DNA of 20,750 nt from a virus: positions 1 through 20,750 of the IMG/VR virus record IMGVR_UViG_3300046007_000837; one strand, given 5' to 3'. A program made the position numbers and the translations under genes. Shown one piece after another: positions 2,786 through 19,316 of the stretch; position 1 is the first letter of the stretch; every line of letters starts with the position of its first letter. The notes below the pieces were generated by a model. It was given only the letters and a program-made list of their open reading frames with translations, was not told where the DNA came from and did no database searches.

Positions 2786-3583
2786 ATGGCGGCGCCAACC
2801 CTATATCAAAAACGAACTGCGGCAAAGCGCGGGTCTAGAGATATTGTTCGCCTAGCTGAACAATATAAGCGCGGTATTCAGTCTGTGTCGTCTGAGTACG
2901 AGCAGGCATTTGGCGCATACCAGGCAAAGACAGCTGAGACTCTGGCCCCATACGAGGCAGCAATTAAGAAATATCAAGAGAGCACTCTTCCTCAATACGA
3001 AAGCGCAGCCGCCACCTACGAGGCCAAGGCCAAAGAGTATCAAAGCAAAGTATCAAGCTACCAGGATTTATTAAAAAGCTATGCTGTTGATCCCCAGGGC
3101 AGGCGCGTCACAATGTCCAACTACGCTTATGGAAACGTATATACAACCAATTATCCAGGCACAAAACAACAGGTCAATTTCGCAGAAGCGTGGAAATATA
3201 ACCCGATTAACCTACCAGAAAGTTCTTTTGTTGAGGGATACTCAGGGCAGTCTCGCTGGGTTCTTCCATCGGGGTGGGAGTGGGTTCCAGATGTCAAAGG
3301 ACAAACTGGGTATCAAGCTACCGGCTATCTTAGAAAATCTGGAGTCACCACGCCTTTTGAGCAGTTTACGCAGCGCACGGCGCCTGGCGCGTTTACAGAG
3401 AAGGCCCCAGCTGCACCAGAGGCTCCACCATCTGCGCCAACAATTGAGTCATTCTCTGATGAGCCATTTCAGCAAAAACGCGCTGGACTAGAGAGCGAGT
3501 TTCAACGCGAATTGGGCGAGCGCAAATCTGCCCGCATATCAGCTGTATCACGCCGCTCTTCACGGCCACTAATGCAAGGGTAA
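2786..3583 (+). CDS. Probable virion protein with Tyr/Ala-rich helical N-terminus
   Basis: A 265-residue protein of unknown function. Residues about 15-95 form a regular Tyr/Ala/Lys-rich helical stretch (YEQAFGAYQAK, YEAAIKKYQ, YESAAATYEAKAKEYQ). A middle part rich in Gly, Trp and Tyr follows (NYAYGNVYTTNYPG, VLPSGWEWVPD), then a Pro/Ala linker at about 205-218 and a basic C-terminus ending RRSSRPLMQG. The gene begins 2 nt after the previous stop at a junction (GTAACCATGG) identical to the junction at its own 3' end. No catalytic motif is visible. Its setting suggests a minor head or connector protein. Confidence 0.8.
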   Translation: MAAPTLYQKRTAAKRGSRDIVRLAEQYKRGIQSVSSEYEQAFGAYQAKTAETLAPYEAAIKKYQESTLPQYESAAATYEAKAKEYQSKVSSYQDLLKSYAVDPQGRRVTMSNYAYGNVYTTNYPGTKQQVNFAEAWKYNPINLPESSFVEGYSGQSRWVLPSGWEWVPDVKGQTGYQATGYLRKSGVTTPFEQFTQRTAPGAFTEKAPAAPEAPPSAPTIESFSDEPFQQKRAGLESEFQRELGERKSARISAVSRRSSRPLMQG

Positions 3584-3901: not shown

Positions 3902-4221
3902 GCAAATACAAGGACCCAGACGGTGGCCTTACCGAGGCCGGGCGTCGCAAATTTGAGCGATCAGGGGAAAGCAAGAACTTGCAGCCTGGCGTCAAAGATT
4001 CGTCTCCGTCTGGCGAGCGAGCCAGGCGCAAGGGTTCTTTTTTAACTAGGTTCTATACCAACCCAAGCGGTCCCATGGTTAACGAAAAGGGTGAGCCAAC
4101 TAGGTTGGCCAAGGCTGCTAATGCCTGGGGCGAGCCGGTTCCAAGAACACGCGCAGCAGCTGCGCGACTAGCTGCCAAGGGCCGTAATTTGCTTGAAAAG
4201 TACAAACTGGAAAAGGACTGA
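3898..4221 (+). CDS. DUF6321-like basic protein
   Basis: A 107-residue basic protein. It begins KYKDPDGGLTEAGRRKFERS, continues with a GVKD...SGERARRKGSFLTRFY region, and ends in an Ala/Arg/Lys-rich helix (RTRAAAARLAAKGRNLLEKYK). This order (G-G-L-T-x-x-G-R near the N-terminus, then RRKGSFLxRFY) fits the DUF6321 pattern. The function is unknown. The GTG start at 3898 makes a 4-nt GTGA overlap with the previous stop, implying coupled translation. The stop lies 1 nt before the portal ATG. Confidence 0.82.
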   Translation: MSKYKDPDGGLTEAGRRKFERSGESKNLQPGVKDSSPSGERARRKGSFLTRFYTNPSGPMVNEKGEPTRLAKAANAWGEPVPRTRAAAARLAAKGRNLLEKYKLEKD

Positions 4222-4222
4222 T

Positions 4223-5845
4223 ATGGATATTAGTTACTACGACAAGAAGGCTCCGGGCGGGCTGCGTCTTTCCCCTGACGAAATTATGAAACGTCAGGAA
4301 ATAGCCCAAAAGAAAAAAGACGAATTTCAGCAAATATATCAAGACGCCTACGAATTTGCCCTCCCGCAGCGCCAGCTATATGGCGTATGGGAAGGCGGTG
4401 CTACCGGCACCAAAAAAATGCACCGGGTATTTGATTCGACCGCAATCAATTCGACTCAGAGATTTGCTAACCGACTGCAGTCTGTGGTGTTTCCACCCCA
4501 GCGCAAGTGGTGCCGGCTAGAGCCGGGACCTTCTATTCCTACTGATAAGACACAGATGGCCCAGGCAATCTTGGATGTCTACCAGGACAAGATGTTTGCG
4601 GCGCTGCGTCAATCTAATTTTGATATTGCAATTGGAGAGTTTCTCTTAGACCTGGCGGTTGGTACGGCCTGTATGATGGTGCAGCCAGGCGATGACATTA
4701 GCCCAATTAACTTTGTGCCGGTCCCGCTATTTCTTGTGTCCTACGAAGAGGGCGCCAATGGCCAGGTAGACAATGTATACAGAAGAATGCGCATGAAGGG
4801 CGAGAGCATCGAGCGCCAGTGGCCAGATGCCAAGATGCCAGACGATATGGTGCGCCGCATTCAAAATAAACCCACGGACGACGTTGAGCTGCTCGAGGCA
4901 ACCATATTTGACGCCAAGCGCGGGGACTACTGTTACCACGTTATCGACAAGACATCTAAGCAAGAGATTGTCTATCGCAGAAGAAAGACCTCCCCGTGGG
5001 TTATATCGCGCTACATGAAAGTGGCTGGGGAAATCTATGGCCGCGGCCCGCTAATGACAGCGCTGCCAGACATTAAGACACTCAACAAGACAAAGGAGCT
5101 TCTACTTAAGAATGCCTCTATGGCCGTGTCTGGTGCCTACACCGCAGCTGATGACGGGGTCTTAAATCCCAACACGGTCAAAATTGTTCCTGGCGCGATT
5201 ATTCCGGTAGCCCGTAATGGTGGGCCACAGGGTCCGAGCCTGTTAGCGTTGCCCAGGTCTGGAGACTTTAACGTGTCGCAGCTGGTGATCAACGATATGA
5301 CCGCCAGCATCAAACGAATTCTGTTGGATGAGTCTCTGCCGCCAGACAATATGTCCGCTAGGTCTGCCACAGAAATTGTGGAGCGAATGAAGGAGCTGGC
5401 CCAGAACCTGGGCTCTGCCTTTGGTCGCCTGATCAATGAGACCATGATTCCTCTAACGGCCAAGATTCTCGAAGTAATGGACGAGCGCGGCATGATTGAC
5501 TTGCCACTGCGCGTTAACGGCCTAGAGGTTAAGGTTACCCCGGTGGCACCGCTGGCCCAGGCCCAGGCAATGGACGAGATCAACGCAATCTTGCAATACT
5601 CGCAGCTGATGCAGGGCTTTGGCACAGACGGAGCCGTCGCAATCAAGACAGACCTTGTCGTGGATTACATTGGCGACAAGCTGGGGGTGCCGGCCACGCT
5701 CAGAAACAACCAAGCAGAGAGAGCTGTTCTCATGGAGCAGATGCAGCAACAGCAACAAAATGCACTCGCTATGCAGGCAATGAGCGCTCAGATGGCCGCA
5801 ACCGCGGAGCAGCCCATGGTCCCACCTGAGATGGTGCCGGCATGA
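4223..5845 (+). CDS. Portal (head-to-tail connector), T7 gp8-like
   Basis: A 540-residue portal, close to T7 gp8 (536). It would form the dodecameric ring at one capsid vertex, binding terminase, scaffold and tail. Family features include the helical N-terminus through YEFALPQRQLYG (about 43-54), KMHRVFDSTAINSTQRFANRL (about 65-85), VFPPQRKWCRLEPG, and the clip/stem part with SARSATEIVERMKELAQNLG. The C-terminus is Gln/Met/Ala-rich (MEQMQQQQQ), which is common but poorly conserved. ATG at 4223 with AAAAGGA just upstream is preferred to an in-frame TTG at 4193. The stop overlaps the next start as ATGA. Confidence 0.95.
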   Translation: MDISYYDKKAPGGLRLSPDEIMKRQEIAQKKKDEFQQIYQDAYEFALPQRQLYGVWEGGATGTKKMHRVFDSTAINSTQRFANRLQSVVFPPQRKWCRLEPGPSIPTDKTQMAQAILDVYQDKMFAALRQSNFDIAIGEFLLDLAVGTACMMVQPGDDISPINFVPVPLFLVSYEEGANGQVDNVYRRMRMKGESIERQWPDAKMPDDMVRRIQNKPTDDVELLEATIFDAKRGDYCYHVIDKTSKQEIVYRRRKTSPWVISRYMKVAGEIYGRGPLMTALPDIKTLNKTKELLLKNASMAVSGAYTAADDGVLNPNTVKIVPGAIIPVARNGGPQGPSLLALPRSGDFNVSQLVINDMTASIKRILLDESLPPDNMSARSATEIVERMKELAQNLGSAFGRLINETMIPLTAKILEVMDERGMIDLPLRVNGLEVKVTPVAPLAQAQAMDEINAILQYSQLMQGFGTDGAVAIKTDLVVDYIGDKLGVPATLRNNQAERAVLMEQMQQQQQNALAMQAMSAQMAATAEQPMVPPEMVPA

Positions 5846-11791: not shown

Positions 11792-13519
11792 ATGGCAGAG
11801 CGAAGAATTGAGTCTGGTCGCGCACAGATTGCTGGGGTTGGCGGGGCGCCTCTGCAGCGGGTGGCTATGCCCCAGGTTGATTACGTTGGGGTGCGCGCCG
11901 AGGGTCAGGCGGCCGGCCAGCTATCACAGCTGCTAGAAAGAATGAGCTCCACTCTCTTTAAGGAGGCAGGCGAGCTGCGCCAAAAAGAGGGCCTGGAGTT
12001 TGTGGCCACAAATCCAATTACCCCAGAACAGCTTGAGGCCGCAAAAGGCGGCAGCATTCAGCCACTAGGCTTAGGCGGCGGTCTTTCTATTTTTGACCAA
12101 GCAGTTCGCAAGGCAAGGGCCATAGAGATTTCTGGTCACTTTGAAATGGAAGGGCGCAACGAGCTTACAAAACTGCTCACGCAAGTTGAAACTGGGCAGG
12201 CGACATCCGCTGACGTTGAAACAAAAATTAAGGCTTTCACTGATGGTTTTAGTCCGGTTATTACAAAAATCGACCCAGAGGCTACGTTTAAGTTTAGGGC
12301 CACAATGGCCACCCAGGGCAACGCAATTTTAAAGTCGGCATACGAGACAGAGCTCAAGCGCGCCAAGAACCAGCGAATCGCCAAGTTTGACATGGACTTT
12401 GACAATCAGATGAGATTGCTGGAGGCGGCTGTGGCGCAAGACCCAAACAACATAGAGGGCATAGCTTCCGTCGCTCGCAATAATATTCAACTGCAGTCAC
12501 TGATATTTGGCGACGCGGCCATACAGAAAGATTATTCCACTAAGTTTGAGGCCGGCTTGCGCAACGCCAAGATTAACGCGCTCACCAAAGTGCTGACCTC
12601 AGATGAGTTTATGGTTAACCCAGACGAAACATTATCTAAAATTCGTCAGGGAGAAATTGGTAACTTAAGCCCCGTACTAAAGCAGATGATTAACACTGAC
12701 TTTGACGCCGTGGCCAAGGTAACAGCAAACTTTATGGTGGCCGCAAACCAGCGCGATACACTGGCAAAACAAAAAATAGACCGCAACAAGAGAGAGGGCG
12801 AGGCCGCCGCAATTAACTTGCTCGAGCAAATATTTCCGCTGCCAGACGGAGACCCACGGCGAACAGCTTTGGTTTCACAATTGGTTGAACTGCCCCCCGG
12901 CTCTGTTCCAATTGGTACACTGAAAGACTTGCTAGATCCAAACGTGCGCAGCAACCCAATGGTGCTTGGAAATATTTACAATTTAATTGACAAAGGCGCC
13001 ATCAATACTAAGGAACAAATTGACGCATACGTTGGCAAGGGCATCGGAGGCAACGACTATGTGTCTCTGATTAAGTATCTTAATGCAGACGACAGACGAG
13101 ACAAGCGAGACCTGCAGCAGGGTATCTCCAGGCTCGCTGGCATCCCGGTTATACCTGGCCAGATGATTGTGCTCGACCCCAAGGGAACTGAGTTTCAGCG
13201 CCGCCAGGAGCTCGAGTCCGAGGCCCTGCGCATTCAGGCAGACGCGGCCAAGGGAGGGGTATCTCTAACCACGTCGCAAATCTTGCAGCAGCTCGAGACC
13301 AACATTGCAACCAGACGTAACAGTGAGGCTGCCACCAGAGCTGCCCAGTCCCTTGGGGTCTACGAGAAAAAAGATTGGATTGGCGGCCCGATTACTAGAG
13401 ACAATCTCCCAGCTCTTGAGCGCAAGGCCGGAACAGACAAAAACAAACTAAACGAGCTGAACCGTATTAAGACGCTGCTTGATCAAAAAGAAGGCATCAC
13501 AGCTGGAGGTGCAAGATAA
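11792..13519 (+). CDS. Internal virion protein, gp15-like
   Basis: A 575-residue, mostly helical, Gln/Ala/Lys/Asp-rich protein in the place of T7 gp15 (747 residues). Notable parts are an N-terminal leader with GVGGAPLQRVAMPQVDYVGV, a helical region containing KEAGELRQKEGLEFVATNPITPEQ, repeats of alpha-helical pairs through about residue 340 (RAKNQRIAKFDMDFDNQMRL), and a C-terminal helical bundle. By analogy it would join the ejection tube that spans the periplasm. No enzymatic motif is evident. The gene starts 3 nt after the previous stop and ends in a TAATG overlap. Confidence 0.75.
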   Translation: MAERRIESGRAQIAGVGGAPLQRVAMPQVDYVGVRAEGQAAGQLSQLLERMSSTLFKEAGELRQKEGLEFVATNPITPEQLEAAKGGSIQPLGLGGGLSIFDQAVRKARAIEISGHFEMEGRNELTKLLTQVETGQATSADVETKIKAFTDGFSPVITKIDPEATFKFRATMATQGNAILKSAYETELKRAKNQRIAKFDMDFDNQMRLLEAAVAQDPNNIEGIASVARNNIQLQSLIFGDAAIQKDYSTKFEAGLRNAKINALTKVLTSDEFMVNPDETLSKIRQGEIGNLSPVLKQMINTDFDAVAKVTANFMVAANQRDTLAKQKIDRNKREGEAAAINLLEQIFPLPDGDPRRTALVSQLVELPPGSVPIGTLKDLLDPNVRSNPMVLGNIYNLIDKGAINTKEQIDAYVGKGIGGNDYVSLIKYLNADDRRDKRDLQQGISRLAGIPVIPGQMIVLDPKGTEFQRRQELESEALRIQADAAKGGVSLTTSQILQQLETNIATRRNSEAATRAAQSLGVYEKKDWIGGPITRDNLPALERKAGTDKNKLNELNRIKTLLDQKEGITAGGAR

Positions 13520-14358
13520 TGTCGTGGTCTGAAATTGAAAACGCATACTTGGACCGCCTGGCGGCATATGAATTTCCTGGCACGCCACCGGCAGAACAAG
13601 AGCCGGCCAAGGGACCAGAGGTAACAGAGCCCAGTGAGGCACCAGCTGAGATGAAGGCGTATGACCCAACCACGCGTGAGCGGATTGCATCGTTTTTGCA
13701 AGCTGGTTTTGAGGGTTTGGGCATGGATCGTTCAAGCGCACGCAAAAACGCTCAAAGCATTATTGGTGGCCCGTCATCTGGTGGGCCGCTGGGCATAGGT
13801 ATTGCTGACATTGTGCCGTTGATAGGAACCGCGCTGCAGACTGAAGAGGCTAGCCGCAACCTGGGAAATGCCGCAACGCTGGCCAAGCAAGGCGATATGG
13901 CCGGCGCTGCCATCGAGGCAGGTATCGGTGCTGTCGGTATGCTCCCTGGCGCAATTGGCACGGTTCAGCTTGGCAAGCAAGCAAAAAAGATGGCCACCGA
14001 AATTGCTAAGACACCACCTGTTGGCGCAATCAATACTTGGATTTCGCGCGATGAGTTTACTGCCTACCGAAACCAGCCAAGGCAGTTACAAGGCTTTAAG
14101 ACTATCGGCCCGAACAAGGGTTTTGACGAGCAAAAATACAAGCACGCGGAATTCTTAGAGGTCAAGCTAGACGATGGTACGACTTTTTATGATGCGATTC
14201 GTGGTCTAAACAAGTCTCATGCGCTGTCGCGTGCGTTTGGTAATTGGCCTGCCGCGTCCGAGATTAGACCTCTTGCGCGCCTTGAGGCCGAAAAGGCTGA
14301 CCCGTCTCTTGTCAAAGAGGTTGATGCAGCAATGGGCGTATCTAAGGGGAAAAAATAA
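13519..14358 (+). CDS. Unassigned internal virion protein with Gly-rich hydrophobic core
   Basis: A 279-residue protein lying between the gp15-like and gp16-like genes, where T7 has none. It has an acidic Pro/Glu-rich N-terminus (about 20-45) and a helical RERIASFLQAGFEGLGM region. A Gly/Ala-rich apolar part follows at about 84-150 (GPLGIGIADIVPLIGTAL; AAIEAGIGAVGMLPGAIG) that could insert in a membrane. A soluble C-terminal domain carries IRGLNKSHALSRAFGNWPAA. The function is unknown. Similar Gly-rich blocks occur in large phage polyvalent proteins, so it may be a split part of one. GGAGG at 13505-13509 supports the start. Confidence 0.75.
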   Translation: MSWSEIENAYLDRLAAYEFPGTPPAEQEPAKGPEVTEPSEAPAEMKAYDPTTRERIASFLQAGFEGLGMDRSSARKNAQSIIGGPSSGGPLGIGIADIVPLIGTALQTEEASRNLGNAATLAKQGDMAGAAIEAGIGAVGMLPGAIGTVQLGKQAKKMATEIAKTPPVGAINTWISRDEFTAYRNQPRQLQGFKTIGPNKGFDEQKYKHAEFLEVKLDDGTTFYDAIRGLNKSHALSRAFGNWPAASEIRPLARLEAEKADPSLVKEVDAAMGVSKGKK

Positions 14359-17283
14359 ATGGCCATCAAACCACTTGAGCAGCGCTTAGAATCAATTCTG
14401 CCGGCTGCAGATCAGATCACATCTGATCCAATGGCTCCGGTCGAGCCAATGCCCGGTGAGGCCATCGAGACCCCGCAGATGGAGCTGCTGTCTGGTGAGC
14501 CAGGCACGCCAGGCATGGAAGACACCACCCAGGTCGCCGGATTATTTGACAGGATAGTTCGTGGTGGAATTGGATCGGTTACCCGCAAGGCGCCCAAGGC
14601 AGAGCGCCAGCTTGTGCCAGAGGTTAAACCTGGCGTTCTGCCGGAACCAGAGAAGGTTGGCCGATTTAAGGTAATCCCGGAGGCAGACGAGCAGCTGACC
14701 GAGGAGGTTGGCCGAGCTGTTAGCCGTCGCCAGACATTTGGCATCACGCAGGGCAAGCCGCCAGAGGAGGCCTTTAATCTTTCTAGATTTCAAACCGAGA
14801 ACGCAGCTGGTGTAGTTGGCGGTGTGGCAGACGCGCTTGGCATCAAGACCAAGGCTGTGACATTTGATGAGCTCAAGGCCAAGGCAAAGGAAAGCGGAAT
14901 CTCCGAGGCGTTTCTGTCCAGGCTAATAGCTGCCGACGGGAAGATGTTGCCGTCAGCTGTGGAGACATACCAGGCCCTCGAGGTTCTAGAGAGCTCGGCC
15001 AACGAGCTCGACCGTCTCTTCAAGCTAGTCAACGAAGGCCAGGCCACCGACGCACAAAAGCTGCAGCTGAGACAGCAGGTAGCATTCCACGGCCTGGTGC
15101 AAAAGGGCGTTAAGGGAATCCAGACAGAGACGGCCAGGGCCCTCGCTGTGTTTCGTATTCCAAGAGAGGGCAACGCAGACATTATTCGCCAGGTGCTAGA
15201 TGAGTACGGCGGCGATAGATCGTTGCAAGATATGGCGCGTAGCTATCTGACCCTAGAGTCTCGCGCAGCTCGCAACCAGATGGTTGAGAAGTCAATGTTT
15301 TCTAGCCTCAAGGATGTGTGGTTTACGACATATATTAACGGCCTTCTGGCGTCCTTCACATCTCACGCTAAAAATATTTTGGGTAATAGTATGTTTGGGC
15401 TGTATCAGATCCCAGAGCGCTTGATAGCTGGTCTCTACTCGCAGTATTTGCCGAAGGCCGCACGCGAGGGCGCGGTGCCAAAGTGGCTAGGTGGCAGCTC
15501 TGTGTGGGGCGACTTGGTCCCAGGAAGCGCAGATGAAAAAATAGCGCTGGACGAGGCGCTGACCATGATTCAGTCCCTTCGTAATGGGATGTCAGAGGGT
15601 TTGCAGCTGGCGTCCACGGCATTTCGTACCAACCAGGCCAGCGATCTAGCGAGCAAGGTAGAGCTGCAGCGTATGCCACAGGAAGCTCTGGGCGAGACAC
15701 TGCAGAGGATCACTGGAGTTGGACAGGACACCTGGATGGGCAAGGCCATGGACTACTATGGCACAGCCGTTACCCTACCCGGACGAGCTCTGATGTCTGA
15801 GGATGAGTTCTTCAAGGGCGTCTTCTACAGGATGCACCTCAACACTTTGATTGATCGGCGCGGCAAGTCCATCTACCGTCAGGCCATCGAGGGCGGCGCG
15901 TCGGAGTCAGACGCACTGGCCAGGCAGCAAGCGGAGATGACCTCATTATTTGAGAACCCACCCAGGGACCTAGACGACGCGGCGATGGAATTTGCCAGGC
16001 GCGGCACGTTTACCGGAGAGCTGCCACCCGCCCTAGCTGCGCTACAGAAAGTATTTAATCACCCGGCCCTGAAGATTGCGGTGCCGTTCTTTAAGACCCC
16101 GGCCAACATTGGCCTGGAGGTGATCGAGCGCACGCCATTTGCGCCGCTGTCGTCCAGGTTTAGAGATGACATAGGCAAGGGCGGCGTCTACCGCGACATG
16201 GCTCTAGCAAAGGTAACCCTTGGGTCTACCTTGCTGACTACCTTTGCGCTGATGGCCGGAGAGGGAACAATCACTGGTGGTGGCCCAAAGAGACCAGCGC
16301 AGCGCCAGGCGTGGGAGCGCACCGGGGCTAAACCATATTCGTTCAAGATTGGCGATGACTACTATAGCTACCAGGGCCTAGAGCCGATTGGCGCATTTAT
16401 TGGTATGGCCGCGGACTACGCAGAATACGCGCTGGAGGAGCCAGACGCCGGCAAGGTAGAACAGGTCGCCATGGGTATGGTGTACGGGTTCTATGAGTAC
16501 ATGAAGGAGCAGCCATACCTACAGGGCCTGGCCGAGATAACAAAGGCCCTGGGCCTTGGCAGGGGCTCCGGAGAGGTAGACGGAGCGAAGGTTGTCAACG
16601 AGCTCACAAAGCAGCTCGGCCAGTTTGTAATTGGTGGGTCACCTTTACCTGGCACGTCCGCGCTTGGCGGCGCACTCGAGCGCCTATTGGACCCAAATGC
16701 CACAAACGTAAACGCAGATCCAAATTTACCAATGGGGCTGCGCGGCCTGGTAACCGCCTGGAACAGGTACCGCTCGAGGCTGCCGTACTTTAATAGCGAC
16801 CTTCCAGAGGACCTGAATCTGTGGGGAGACCCAAAGATGCAGGCCAACGAAAACCTGACCATGCGTATTTTAGGCATGGTGTTACCAACTAGGGTTTCCC
16901 CTGACCAGTTCTCGGATGTAGACGACGAGCTGGTGCGCCTGGGGTCACCCATTGGGATGCCTGAAACCAAGGTAGGGTTTCAAATTGGCCAAGGCGAGGG
17001 CGCCATATCAGGCAACGTGGAGCTTAATGCCAACCAAAGGCACCGGCTGCTGACAATCTATGGCAAGGAAACCAACGCCAAAGACGACATCTTGCGCCTG
17101 ATCCGCACCCCTGGATTCGATCTGCTATCGAAGGCCGACCAGCAGCAGCAGGTCCAGAGACTGCACTCAAAGTATATGAATATCGCAAAGATGCAGCTGA
17201 TGTCTGAGGACCCCGGCATCGAGGCCAAGATCATTGAGCTCAATGAATTGCGCCAGGCCCACGGAAACTACTACAAACCTTAA
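14359..17283 (+). CDS. Large internal virion protein, gp16-like position
   Basis: At 974 residues this is the largest gene in the window, in the position of T7 gp16 (1318). The N-terminus (1-135) is Pro/Glu-rich and looks disordered. Residues about 140-320 are helical. A hydrophobic block at about 322-343 reads FTTYINGLLASFTSHAKNILGN, resembling the Th-x-x-N-x-x-GN element of large phage ejection or polyvalent proteins. Later parts include VPFFKTPANIGLEVIERTPF and the DDYYSYQGLEPIGAFIGMAADYAEYA region. No lytic transglycosylase motif was seen. The ATG directly follows the previous stop with AAGGGG at 14344-14349. Confidence 0.75.
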   Translation: MAIKPLEQRLESILPAADQITSDPMAPVEPMPGEAIETPQMELLSGEPGTPGMEDTTQVAGLFDRIVRGGIGSVTRKAPKAERQLVPEVKPGVLPEPEKVGRFKVIPEADEQLTEEVGRAVSRRQTFGITQGKPPEEAFNLSRFQTENAAGVVGGVADALGIKTKAVTFDELKAKAKESGISEAFLSRLIAADGKMLPSAVETYQALEVLESSANELDRLFKLVNEGQATDAQKLQLRQQVAFHGLVQKGVKGIQTETARALAVFRIPREGNADIIRQVLDEYGGDRSLQDMARSYLTLESRAARNQMVEKSMFSSLKDVWFTTYINGLLASFTSHAKNILGNSMFGLYQIPERLIAGLYSQYLPKAAREGAVPKWLGGSSVWGDLVPGSADEKIALDEALTMIQSLRNGMSEGLQLASTAFRTNQASDLASKVELQRMPQEALGETLQRITGVGQDTWMGKAMDYYGTAVTLPGRALMSEDEFFKGVFYRMHLNTLIDRRGKSIYRQAIEGGASESDALARQQAEMTSLFENPPRDLDDAAMEFARRGTFTGELPPALAALQKVFNHPALKIAVPFFKTPANIGLEVIERTPFAPLSSRFRDDIGKGGVYRDMALAKVTLGSTLLTTFALMAGEGTITGGGPKRPAQRQAWERTGAKPYSFKIGDDYYSYQGLEPIGAFIGMAADYAEYALEEPDAGKVEQVAMGMVYGFYEYMKEQPYLQGLAEITKALGLGRGSGEVDGAKVVNELTKQLGQFVIGGSPLPGTSALGGALERLLDPNATNVNADPNLPMGLRGLVTAWNRYRSRLPYFNSDLPEDLNLWGDPKMQANENLTMRILGMVLPTRVSPDQFSDVDDELVRLGSPIGMPETKVGFQIGQGEGAISGNVELNANQRHRLLTIYGKETNAKDDILRLIRTPGFDLLSKADQQQQVQRLHSKYMNIAKMQLMSEDPGIEAKIIELNELRQAHGNYYKP

Positions 17284-17321: not shown

Positions 17322-19316
17322 ATGCCAATCCAGATTAACAACGTCACTCGCCGAGCTGTGTACTCCCCAACCGGGGCTGGTGGGGCGGGACCATATTCTT
17401 TCACCTTCGAGATATTGGCCGCCGGAGACATCGCCGTCTACAAGGACGACGTACTCTTAACGCTGACCACGCACTACACCGTCTCAATTGCAGCTAACGG
17501 CACCGGGTCCGTAACCATCACAGCTGCTGGATTGGCCCTGGCCCCGGCTAGCCCAACTCAATATGCAATTGTTGGCAACCGTACGATTTCCCGTACGACA
17601 GACTTTGTGACCGGCGGCGACTTCTTCGCTAATACGTTAAACGACGAGCTCGACCAGCAGACCATCTTCAACCAGCAAAATCAAGAAGGTTTGCAACGTG
17701 CGCTGCAGGCTCCACAGACTGATCCAACGTCAATTAGCATGACCCTGCCGCGGGCATCGGTGCGAGCCCTTAAGGTGCTGTCATTTGACGCAAACGGCAA
17801 CCCATCGGCAACAGAGTTTATTGGCTCTAACCGTGGCAACTGGGCCGCCGGCACGCTCTACTATGTGCGCGATATTATTAAAGACACAACCAACGACAAC
17901 ATCTATCAATGTATTGAGCAGCACACCTCTAGTGGGTCGCTGCCAATTACTACAAACGCGGCTAGCTCCAAGTGGGCGCTGTTGGTAGACGCGGCCCAGG
18001 CGTTTTCTTATGCAACAGCAGCTGCGGCCAGTGCATCGGCTGCATCTACGTCGGCGTCTAACGCCTCTACCTCGGCAAGCAACTCCTCTACCTCGGCAAG
18101 TAACGCGTCTAGCTCTGCGTCTGCCGCATCGACCTCCGCAAGCAACGCATCTACCAGCGCATCTGCCGCTAGTACGTCAGCGACTAATGCGTCTAACAGC
18201 GCAACGGCAGCGGCCAGCTCTGCATCTACGGCCAGCACAGCCGCAACCAACGCATCTAATAGCGCATCGTCCGCTAGCACCTCTGCAACTAACGCCTCAA
18301 ATAGTGCAACCTCGGCGGCTAGTTCTGCAACCACAGCTACCAACGCTAGCAACGCCTCAATCAACTTGGCCACTAACTTTACGGCCACAGCCACCACGCT
18401 GTCTGCTGGCTCTAGTGCAACAGCGTCGTACAACTCTGGAACCTATACCCTAACCCTCGGCATTCCAACCGGAGCGACAGGCGCAACGGGCTCGACCGGA
18501 GCGACAGGCGCAACCGGCGCAACCGGGCCAGAGGGCCTTAGATGGTTAGGCGCTTATGCTGGTGGCACAGCTTATGTAGTCGATGATGCTGTTAGCTACA
18601 ACGGATCAAGCTATATCTGTAAGCTTGCCTCAACCGGAAACCTGCCAACGAACACAACTTATTGGGATGTGCTCGCAGAGAAGGGCGCATCTGGCTCTGG
18701 TGCCGGCGATGTGGTTGGCCCAGCATCTGCGGTCAATGACCGCCTGGTTGCGTTTGATGGCACGACCGGAAAGCTGATTAAAGACAGCACATTCACGGCA
18801 TCTAGCTTTGCTAAGTACGCCGATACAACAGCAAACTTCACAGGCACGTTGCAGAACTCTGGTAGCAACGTACTTACAGCAGCCAGCATTGGTTCAACTG
18901 TACAGGCCTATGATGCTGACCTTACCACGCTAGGTGCCGGTGGCTCATCTGCCAGGTCTTTCTTGGGGCTGGCAATTGGCTCAGATGTTCAGGGCTATGA
19001 TGCACAGCTTGCTGATATTGCTGGGTTGACCCCAACAGACAATGGCGTCATTGTTGGCAATGGAACTAACTTTGTTGTGGAGTCTGGGGCAACACTAAAG
19101 ACCTCCCTGGGCCTGACTATTGGCACAGATGTCCAGGCATACGATAGCAACCTAACATCGTTTGTTAATACGTTCACCCTGCCGACAACTGATGGCACGG
19201 CAGATCAGGTATTAAAGACTAATGGTTCAGGGACATTATCTTTTGTAACCCCTAGTGGTGGTGGTGGTATCACAACAGGTAAGGCCATCGCAATGGCCAT
19301 TGTTTTCGGTGGCTAA
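17322..19316 (+). CDS. Tail fibre protein with T7-type N-terminal anchor
   Basis: A 664-residue modular fibre. Residues 1-165 match the T7 gp17 anchor that binds the tail (RRAVYSPTGAGGAGPYSFTFEI style, then DDVLLTLTTHYTV, RTISRTTDF and ELDQQTIFNQQ). Next come a CBM-like module (about 170-222), a 17-heptad alanine repeat (222-340), a seven-triplet collagen-like run (384-404), a second CBM-like module (406-454), and a head part with three IG-x-x-VQ-x-YD-x-x-L repeats (523, 552, 600). The end is a Gly hinge and GKAIAMAIVFGG. It is probably trimeric and host-recognising. GGAAGGA lies 7 nt before the ATG. Confidence 0.93.
   Translation: MPIQINNVTRRAVYSPTGAGGAGPYSFTFEILAAGDIAVYKDDVLLTLTTHYTVSIAANGTGSVTITAAGLALAPASPTQYAIVGNRTISRTTDFVTGGDFFANTLNDELDQQTIFNQQNQEGLQRALQAPQTDPTSISMTLPRASVRALKVLSFDANGNPSATEFIGSNRGNWAAGTLYYVRDIIKDTTNDNIYQCIEQHTSSGSLPITTNAASSKWALLVDAAQAFSYATAAAASASAASTSASNASTSASNSSTSASNASSSASAASTSASNASTSASAASTSATNASNSATAAASSASTASTAATNASNSASSASTSATNASNSATSAASSATTATNASNASINLATNFTATATTLSAGSSATASYNSGTYTLTLGIPTGATGATGSTGATGATGATGPEGLRWLGAYAGGTAYVVDDAVSYNGSSYICKLASTGNLPTNTTYWDVLAEKGASGSGAGDVVGPASAVNDRLVAFDGTTGKLIKDSTFTASSFAKYADTTANFTGTLQNSGSNVLTAASIGSTVQAYDADLTTLGAGGSSARSFLGLAIGSDVQGYDAQLADIAGLTPTDNGVIVGNGTNFVVESGATLKTSLGLTIGTDVQAYDSNLTSFVNTFTLPTTDGTADQVLKTNGSGTLSFVTPSGGGGITTGKAIAMAIVFGG
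17985..18341 (+). repeat. 17-unit heptad repeat (alanine zipper) in the fibre
   Basis: Residues 222-340 divide into 17 consecutive heptads of type x-S-A-S-x-A-S. The third position is Ala in all 17 and the sixth is Ala in 16 (Ser255 is the exception). The DNA period is 21 nt, but serine codons are mixed (TCN and AGY), so the repeat is conserved in protein more than in DNA. Confidence 0.85.
18471..18533 (+). repeat. Collagen-like Gly-x-y run in the fibre
   Basis: Seven Gly-x-y triplets (six of the kind GAT/GST, then GPE) at residues 384-404 with near-repeated DNA (GGAGCGACAGGCGCAAC type units). Such short collagen-like runs often link shaft to head in trimeric phage fibres. Confidence 0.85.
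18885..19172 (+). repeat. Three IG-x-x-VQ-x-YD-x-x-L repeats in the fibre head
   Basis: The motifs IGSTVQAYDADL, IGSDVQGYDAQL and IGTDVQAYDSNL begin at about residues 523, 552 and 600. They are unevenly spaced (29 and 48 residues), with a DNGVIVGNGTNFVVESGA segment between the last two. This pattern is common in distal parts of phage tail fibres and probably forms a beta-structured trimer. Confidence 0.75.

Follow-up and report, generated by a model that had tools for sequence, protein, structure and literature searches.

The locus and the parts of the slot protein

The window, i.e., the whole stretch of 20,750 bases that was analyzed, is a virus record in which genes for a T7-type scaffold (PF05396, 7.3e-27), a portal (PF12236) and the capsid are present. 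The gene studied here, referred to as the slot gene, sits within an operon-like run (Table 1): its ATG shares one base with the upstream stop codon, and its TAA is followed directly by the next ATG. In T7, to our knowledge, no gene is located between gp15 and gp16. An earlier note on this DNA had proposed an extra gene between a gp15-like and a gp16-like gene, and the reading frame was indeed found intact at exactly 13519-14358, with a downstream neighbor that is gp16-like by phrog_6651; the upstream neighbor corresponds to gp15 by position only. The gp16-like protein was matched by 54 phage records (tblastn). The sole match to the gp15-position protein among deposited phages was the product of the equivalently placed gene of phage MEP301 (23.7%), and neither this protein nor the product of the gene before it gave a convincing family match in Pfam or PHROGs. 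Unlike in T7 gp16, Pfam revealed no lysozyme or transglycosylase domain in any of the three proteins encoded at 11792-17283, namely the gp15-position protein, the slot protein and the gp16-like protein.

Elsewhere in the window, the terminase large subunit gene (267-1820) precedes the portal gene (4193-5845), and ORFs without assigned function, 2337-2783 and 2786-3583 among them, lie between the two; in T7, the terminase large subunit gene follows the fiber genes. The product of 17322-19316 is fiber-like; it matches CBM_5_12 (3.3e-7) and contains Ser/Ala-rich repeats as well as a GAT stretch resembling collagen.

Table 1. Positions of the slot gene, its parts and its two neighbors in the window.
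Feature	Position	Strand	Basis or detail
gp15-position protein, 575 aa (5' border of the slot)	11792..13519	+	position
Shine-Dalgarno-like GGAGGT	13505..13510	+	8 bases before the ATG of the slot gene, read directly
Putative payload-slot gene P0001, 279 aa	13519..14358	+	intact ORF
Leader, residues 1-20 (helix 5-18, then FP)	13519..13578	+	conservation; AlphaFold helix 5-18, pLDDT ~83
Conserved 5' segment, codons 1-45	13519..13654	+	continuous with 94%-identical upstream DNA; blastn breakpoint after slot nt 136 versus L004
Exchangeable Gly/Ala-rich apolar cassette, 'type A'	13655..13969	+	no DNA match to L004-L010
Conserved 66-nt linker, protein about ATEIAKTPPVGAIN	13970..14035	+	86-89% DNA identity to L004-L010, both sides swapped
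Exchangeable C-terminal cargo	14036..14355	+	core domain residues 201-252 (14119-14274), motif GLNxxHALxRAxxNWP
gp16-like ejection protein, 974 aa (3' border of the slot)	14359..17283	+	phrog_6651, 6.3e-31

From the N- to the C-terminus, the slot protein comprises four parts: a leader of 20 residues, an apolar block rich in Gly and Ala, a short linker and the C-terminal domain. In an alignment of 63 slot proteins from related contigs, from which the 3' ORF of the disrupted L032 gene and the protein of L039 were left out, Y10 and P20 were present in 63 of 63 sequences, and E7 and F19 in 62 of 63. The slot gene of L039 is without the leader region, with a gap of about 87 nt.

The Gly/Ala-rich character of the apolar block described in the earlier note was evident, with G or A at 29 of the 76 positions of residues 81-156, and blocks of the same protein type (type A) were found in L001, L002, L003, L022, L032 and L039. 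Since an apolar, Gly/Ala-containing block occupies the middle of the slot proteins read, a role in forming or regulating a membrane channel during DNA entry, as had been suggested, was considered. The many G-x-x-x-G-like spacings reported for this block, however, did not exceed what a shuffled composition gives: 11 small-x3-small spacings were counted against a shuffle mean of 12.5 (p 0.84), and four GxxxG against 3.05 (p 0.36). The proposed membrane-segment and structure predictions supported the C-terminal domain, which was well modeled, and gave no positive support to a membrane span: the highest 19-residue hydropathy of the slot protein, 1.46, is borderline and below the 1.6 usually required for a span, and the AlphaFold model of the block was of low confidence. 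Moreover, the block itself is swapped between relatives for sequences of a different type. A weakly apolar block may still insert into a membrane, but a channel former or regulator appears very improbable.

Slot proteins of several contigs, e.g., L041, L048 and L002, contain a motif like SMDGVQLAAG, which resembles SMDEGVQVAG in the gp16 of the same phages and is absent from the slot protein of the window. Judged by this resemblance, it could perhaps be a docking or cleavage site common to the slot protein and gp16. The N-termini of the slot protein and gp16 were aligned by hhalign with a probability of 10%. In a position-weight test of 47 cases, the gp16 N-terminus came first in 4 and within the five best in 39, with the best-scoring segment usually lying elsewhere.

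Exchange of cargo between related contigs

Loci were collected by searches with gp15-position proteins, one of which covered the best 80 of 190 relatives. The 106 loci with a gp15-position gene included 73 with both flanking genes, and subtraction of 8 repeat loci left 65 distinct IMG/VR contigs. Among the matches listed, all 65 of these metagenomic contigs with both flanking genes carried a slot gene, and complete slot proteins ranged from 183 to 956 aa. L032 (4861-7611) carries a broken slot gene, with one ORF of 380 aa and another of 531 aa, followed downstream by an intact gp16 start.

A protein search of viral contigs with the slot protein of the window yielded ten relatives. For eight of them (L003-L010), similarity was confined to the N-terminal part; for L002, it fell chiefly in the C-terminal domain, and for L001, it spanned residues 1-213. 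The DNA of the window matches that of L004 with 94% identity across the gp15-position gene and into the slot gene as far as nt 136; thereafter, the two share the 66 nt of the linker (89% identity) with nothing in common on either side of it, and from the start of gp16 the identity is 92-93%. L005-L010 showed the same pattern of identity and breaks. Since the linker and both outer sides are kept while the stretches between them are swapped, the apolar block and the cargo form two separate cassettes within the slot gene. In eight pairs tested, the 3' border was no more than about 50 nt away from the stop codon of the slot gene, except for L002/L046, where the last domain is common to both.

For a wider comparison, flanks of 1.5 kb were used, which were available upstream in 65 and downstream in 62 contigs. 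A DNA identity of 90% or more on each flank was reached by 38 contig pairs, which are not independent of each other and of which ten are practically identical contigs; 18 of the 38 differed in cargo class. At 95% flank identity, 7 of 24 pairs differed, and 6 of the 15 groups formed at 90% contained mixed cargo. The clearest pair was L046 and L051, which are 97% identical on both sides and carry the domain of the window and an ADP-ribosyltransferase, respectively. As judged from these sequences, cargo swapping is fast.

Clustering of the cargos of the 65 contigs gave 12 clusters in addition to the cargo-less L003. Since the 3' ORF of the broken L032 gene formed a cluster of its own and was counted with the class of L033, at least 11 cargo classes are present. 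An ART-PolyVal domain was found above the cut-off in L051 (9.3e-23) and below it in L001 (2.8e-5). DUF7178 was assigned to the cargos of L002 and L068 (1e-26 and 3.9e-25) and of L007 and L010 (1.6e-7), and weakly to those of L033, L032 and L100. L039 carries phrog_3170 (1.4e-18) and L124 a phrog_7348 segment (8.2e-24). The cargos of L004, L024, L092, L107, L041 and L126 gave no convincing family match, and PADLOC added only one weak match, in L001 (0.0053). A motif had suggested that DUF7178 is a DNA glycosylase; this idea was dropped, as Foldseek returned nothing significant, with one glycosylase at E 1.8, from a poor model (mean pLDDT 44.6). No paper on DUF7178 was found in the open-access literature searched.

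An unpackaged late gene, acting, e.g., in lysis timing, superinfection exclusion or assembly and varying because the spot tolerates insertions, would agree with the broken copy in L032. Tolerated insertion, however, fits poorly with the occupancy of 65 out of 65, the fixed borders with ejection genes, the conserved leader and the fusion to gp16 in one relative (L080; see below), and such a gene appears quite improbable. The slot gene is conserved as a protein, synonymous changes exceeding non-synonymous ones: the C-terminal domains of the window and L046 differ by 40 synonymous and 29 non-synonymous codon changes in 106 codons, and dN is 0.33 and dS 1.70 between those of L002 and L046. L002 and L068 differ in five codons, four of them synonymously.

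The GLN domain of the window

The cargo of the window, named here the GLN domain after its motif, was confidently modeled (AlphaFold pLDDT of 88-96 over about residues 201-270) and recurs in other proteins, which bears out the separate C-terminal domain proposed in the earlier note. The predicted fold is beta-beta-alpha-beta (strands 209-217, 222-229 and 246-252, helix 232-242), followed by two helices. When the domain was searched alone, it was recovered from viral contigs and from no library family, i.e., no model in Pfam, PHROGs or NCBIfam matched it at a meaningful score.

The GLN domain occupies 5 of the 65 slots (window, L046, L002, L064 and L065). A motif search of viral contigs located it in 15 stretches, four of them slot genes and 11 elsewhere, with L067 and L075 being the same stretch. 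As the search pattern was fixed as GLNxxHALxRAxxNWP, the invariance of the motif in the alignment arises partly by construction; the domain positions D52, Y34, V40 and G47 lie outside the pattern. Likewise, the GLN-domain HMM and one follow-up search were built from the same sequences that they recover. Outside slots, the domain stands alone in L073, L074 and L077 and forms part of large phage proteins in L071 (with LPD38), L075 (with InPase) and L076 (with helicase domains). The GLN-domain proteins of L072 and L078 had no Pfam match, and that of L079 matched only PHROGs without known function.

Among 50,697 deposited phages, four queries did not retrieve the GLN domain at a meaningful score: the three queries from other contigs gave no match (two at E<=1, one at 0.1), and the query from the window gave two matches at E 9-10, the one in ZPAH1 being antisense to annotated genes. 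The domain was also not found in genome_contigs. The Prauserella marina plasmid (L085, 2833-3285) encodes, next to an integrase gene, a hypothetical protein of 150 aa that is a weak candidate (tblastn 0.05, HMM 3.9e-5). Five other plasmid matches had E 0.5-8.

Homology of the whole slot protein to a cytoplasmic enzyme, which the earlier note had named as an argument against its proposal, was not observed in Pfam, PHROGs, NCBIfam or among solved structures, where the best match by sequence was at 0.25. A fold search with P0001 against the PDB gave nothing at E<=0.001 among 472 matches at E<=10. The T7 Gp2 and phage p56 inhibitors were not significant as fold relatives (E 0.85-2.3). Ribosomal eL20/LX, a repeated match to residues 205-277 (VIA), reached Z 3.4-4.4, the range of common arrangements, and rubrerythrin (VIA, Z 5.4) was not trusted, as it fits the helices of the apolar block. 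In BFVD, two proteins of uncultured phages without known function matched (1.6e-6 and 1.5e-5). The payload of the window would more likely serve in binding or inhibition than act as an enzyme.

Relation to gp16 and to known injected proteins

In one relative, L080, a single ORF of 1969 aa comprises, in this order, the GLN domain, phrog_3170, DUF7178, a glycine zipper and gp16 (phrog_6651, 8.6e-38), and lies between a large ORF, gp15-like by position only, and a fiber-like ORF. Thus, three domain types that occur as slot cargo are fused to gp16 in one phage. The possibility raised in the earlier note that the slot protein carries a cargo domain is well supported: the domain is self-contained, is exchanged between near-identical phages and is fused with gp16 in this relative.

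Two cultured phages of marine bacteria possess a gene in the same slot before their gp16-like gene, and both products are annotated as hypothetical: gp25 of MEP301 (161 aa), in which no cargo was seen, and gp34 of HTVC028P (954 aa; gp16 of 985 aa). No sequence similarity of either protein to the slot protein of the window was found. In the MEP301 paper (PMC8024684), internal virion proteins are predicted, and gp25 does not appear by that name. The slot gene is absent from ProddE, Eyrgjafa, CRP-227, HTVC011P and the metagenomic MW202733, all with gp16 proteins of 1142-1303 aa that are longer by about 170-330 residues on the N-terminal side of the region in common.

Since the phages without a slot gene have longer gp16 proteins, the slot protein might be a split-off N-terminal region of gp16, i.e., a structural part of the ejection machinery whose apolar block aids passage through the inner membrane and whose C-terminal variety is incidental. 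The short gp16 proteins of the window and HTVC028P, in a comparison that covered 7 of the 54 gp16-matching records, agree with such a split, as do the cargo domains placed in front of gp16 in L080 and the persistence of the cargo-less forms of L003 and MEP301. However, HMM searches in both directions, which are of low sensitivity, revealed nothing above chance between slot proteins and the N-terminal region of long gp16 proteins, and the slot protein of HTVC028P, which matched a long gp16 at the expected place, scored no better than shuffled sequences. A split would also leave the replacement of the C-terminus by unrelated domains, e.g., ADP-ribosyltransferases, unexplained. Although less improbable than a channel or an unpackaged late gene, this origin is unlikely.

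The layout of the slot was compared with three known systems. First, the internal proteins Ip1-3 of T4 are, as far as the accessible text of the sources extends, packaged by an N-terminal leader, injected, otherwise unrelated and encoded at a genomic hotspot (PMC12373910), and inhibit different GmrSD enzymes (PMC12373910, PMC3012670). Like these T-even anti-restriction proteins, the slot proteins combine a conserved N-terminal leader with unrelated payloads at a locus that varies between close relatives, the exception being L039. In contrast to them, the slot adjoins gp16 of a T7-like ejection module rather than lying in the T4 head locus, its protein has an additional swapped apolar block and is not known to be cleaved by a prohead protease, and the likeness considered here is one of layout.

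Second, polyvalent proteins (Iyer et al. 2017; PMC5512222), with domains such as ART-PolyVal, LPDs and InPase, resemble the slot proteins, as described in the part of that work available, in their cargo families, their neighborhood of virion genes and their inferred early delivery. All 65 slot genes lie between the gp15-position and gp16-like genes; ART-PolyVal was above the cut-off in the slot of L051, and the domain of the window, which matches no Pfam family, recurs beside LPD38, InPase and helicase domains. Unlike polyvalent proteins, slot genes mostly carry one cargo behind a common leader at a fixed place: at least two disparate domains were present in L002 (DUF7178 and GLN) and L080, whereas the protein of the window has one globular domain.

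Third, the T7 ejection proteins are gp14, gp15 and gp16, and gp15/gp16 undergo mosaic domain swaps, with the lysozyme located on gp16 in T7 and on gp15 in K1E (PMC8954989). The slot gene belongs to the same ejection module, being flanked by the gp15-position and gp16-like genes, but it is a fourth gene without detectable homology to gp16 family models. The accessible part of that review covers mosaic exchange in gp15/gp16 and describes no such slot, and no report of a payload slot between gp15 and gp16 genes was found in the open-access literature searched.

Since the conserved leader, the variable payload, the swaps at shared borders, the enzyme domains of injected types and the gp16 fusion together fit an ejected payload carrier, we consider it likely that the slot gene is a payload slot in the ejection module of a T7-like phage. 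Its product is probably a modular payload protein that is carried in the virion and ejected, and would work in the manner of the polymorphic T-even internal proteins. The leader, perhaps together with the apolar block, would load the slot protein into the internal head core with the gp15- and gp16-like proteins, and the C-terminal domain would be the payload that leaves with the core proteins at DNA ejection. Early in infection, the payload would act on a host target, most likely defense or another early host function. Payload and, separately, apolar block would be exchanged by recombination within the conserved sequences that flank them. The slot gene may serve a second purpose or may not be required: L039 without a leader and the broken gene of L032 suggest that the whole gene, or the leader alone, may be expendable, and the cargo-less slot proteins of MEP301 and L003 indicate that carrying cargo is not the sole function.

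A more far-reaching proposal can be put forward only tentatively, and we lean against rather than towards it: the leader of about 20 residues may be a general-purpose cargo port that loads whatever follows it into the core and out through the trans-envelope channel of T7-type ejectosomes, with at least 11 cargo classes in this lineage, one of them an undescribed beta-beta-alpha-beta domain shared with unrelated phage contigs.

If the payload reading is correct, the slot would be a natural catalogue of the proteins that short-tailed phages inject before their first gene expression, a catalogue found by position rather than by homology, from which each cargo could be screened against bacterial defenses. 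It would include an undescribed small domain common to stand-alone phage proteins and polyvalent-type proteins of several thousand residues. T7-type ejection has so far been studied as a fixed set of gp14, gp15 and gp16; the plan of a leader with a variable payload, as in the internal proteins of T4, would extend to the T7-type ejection machine.
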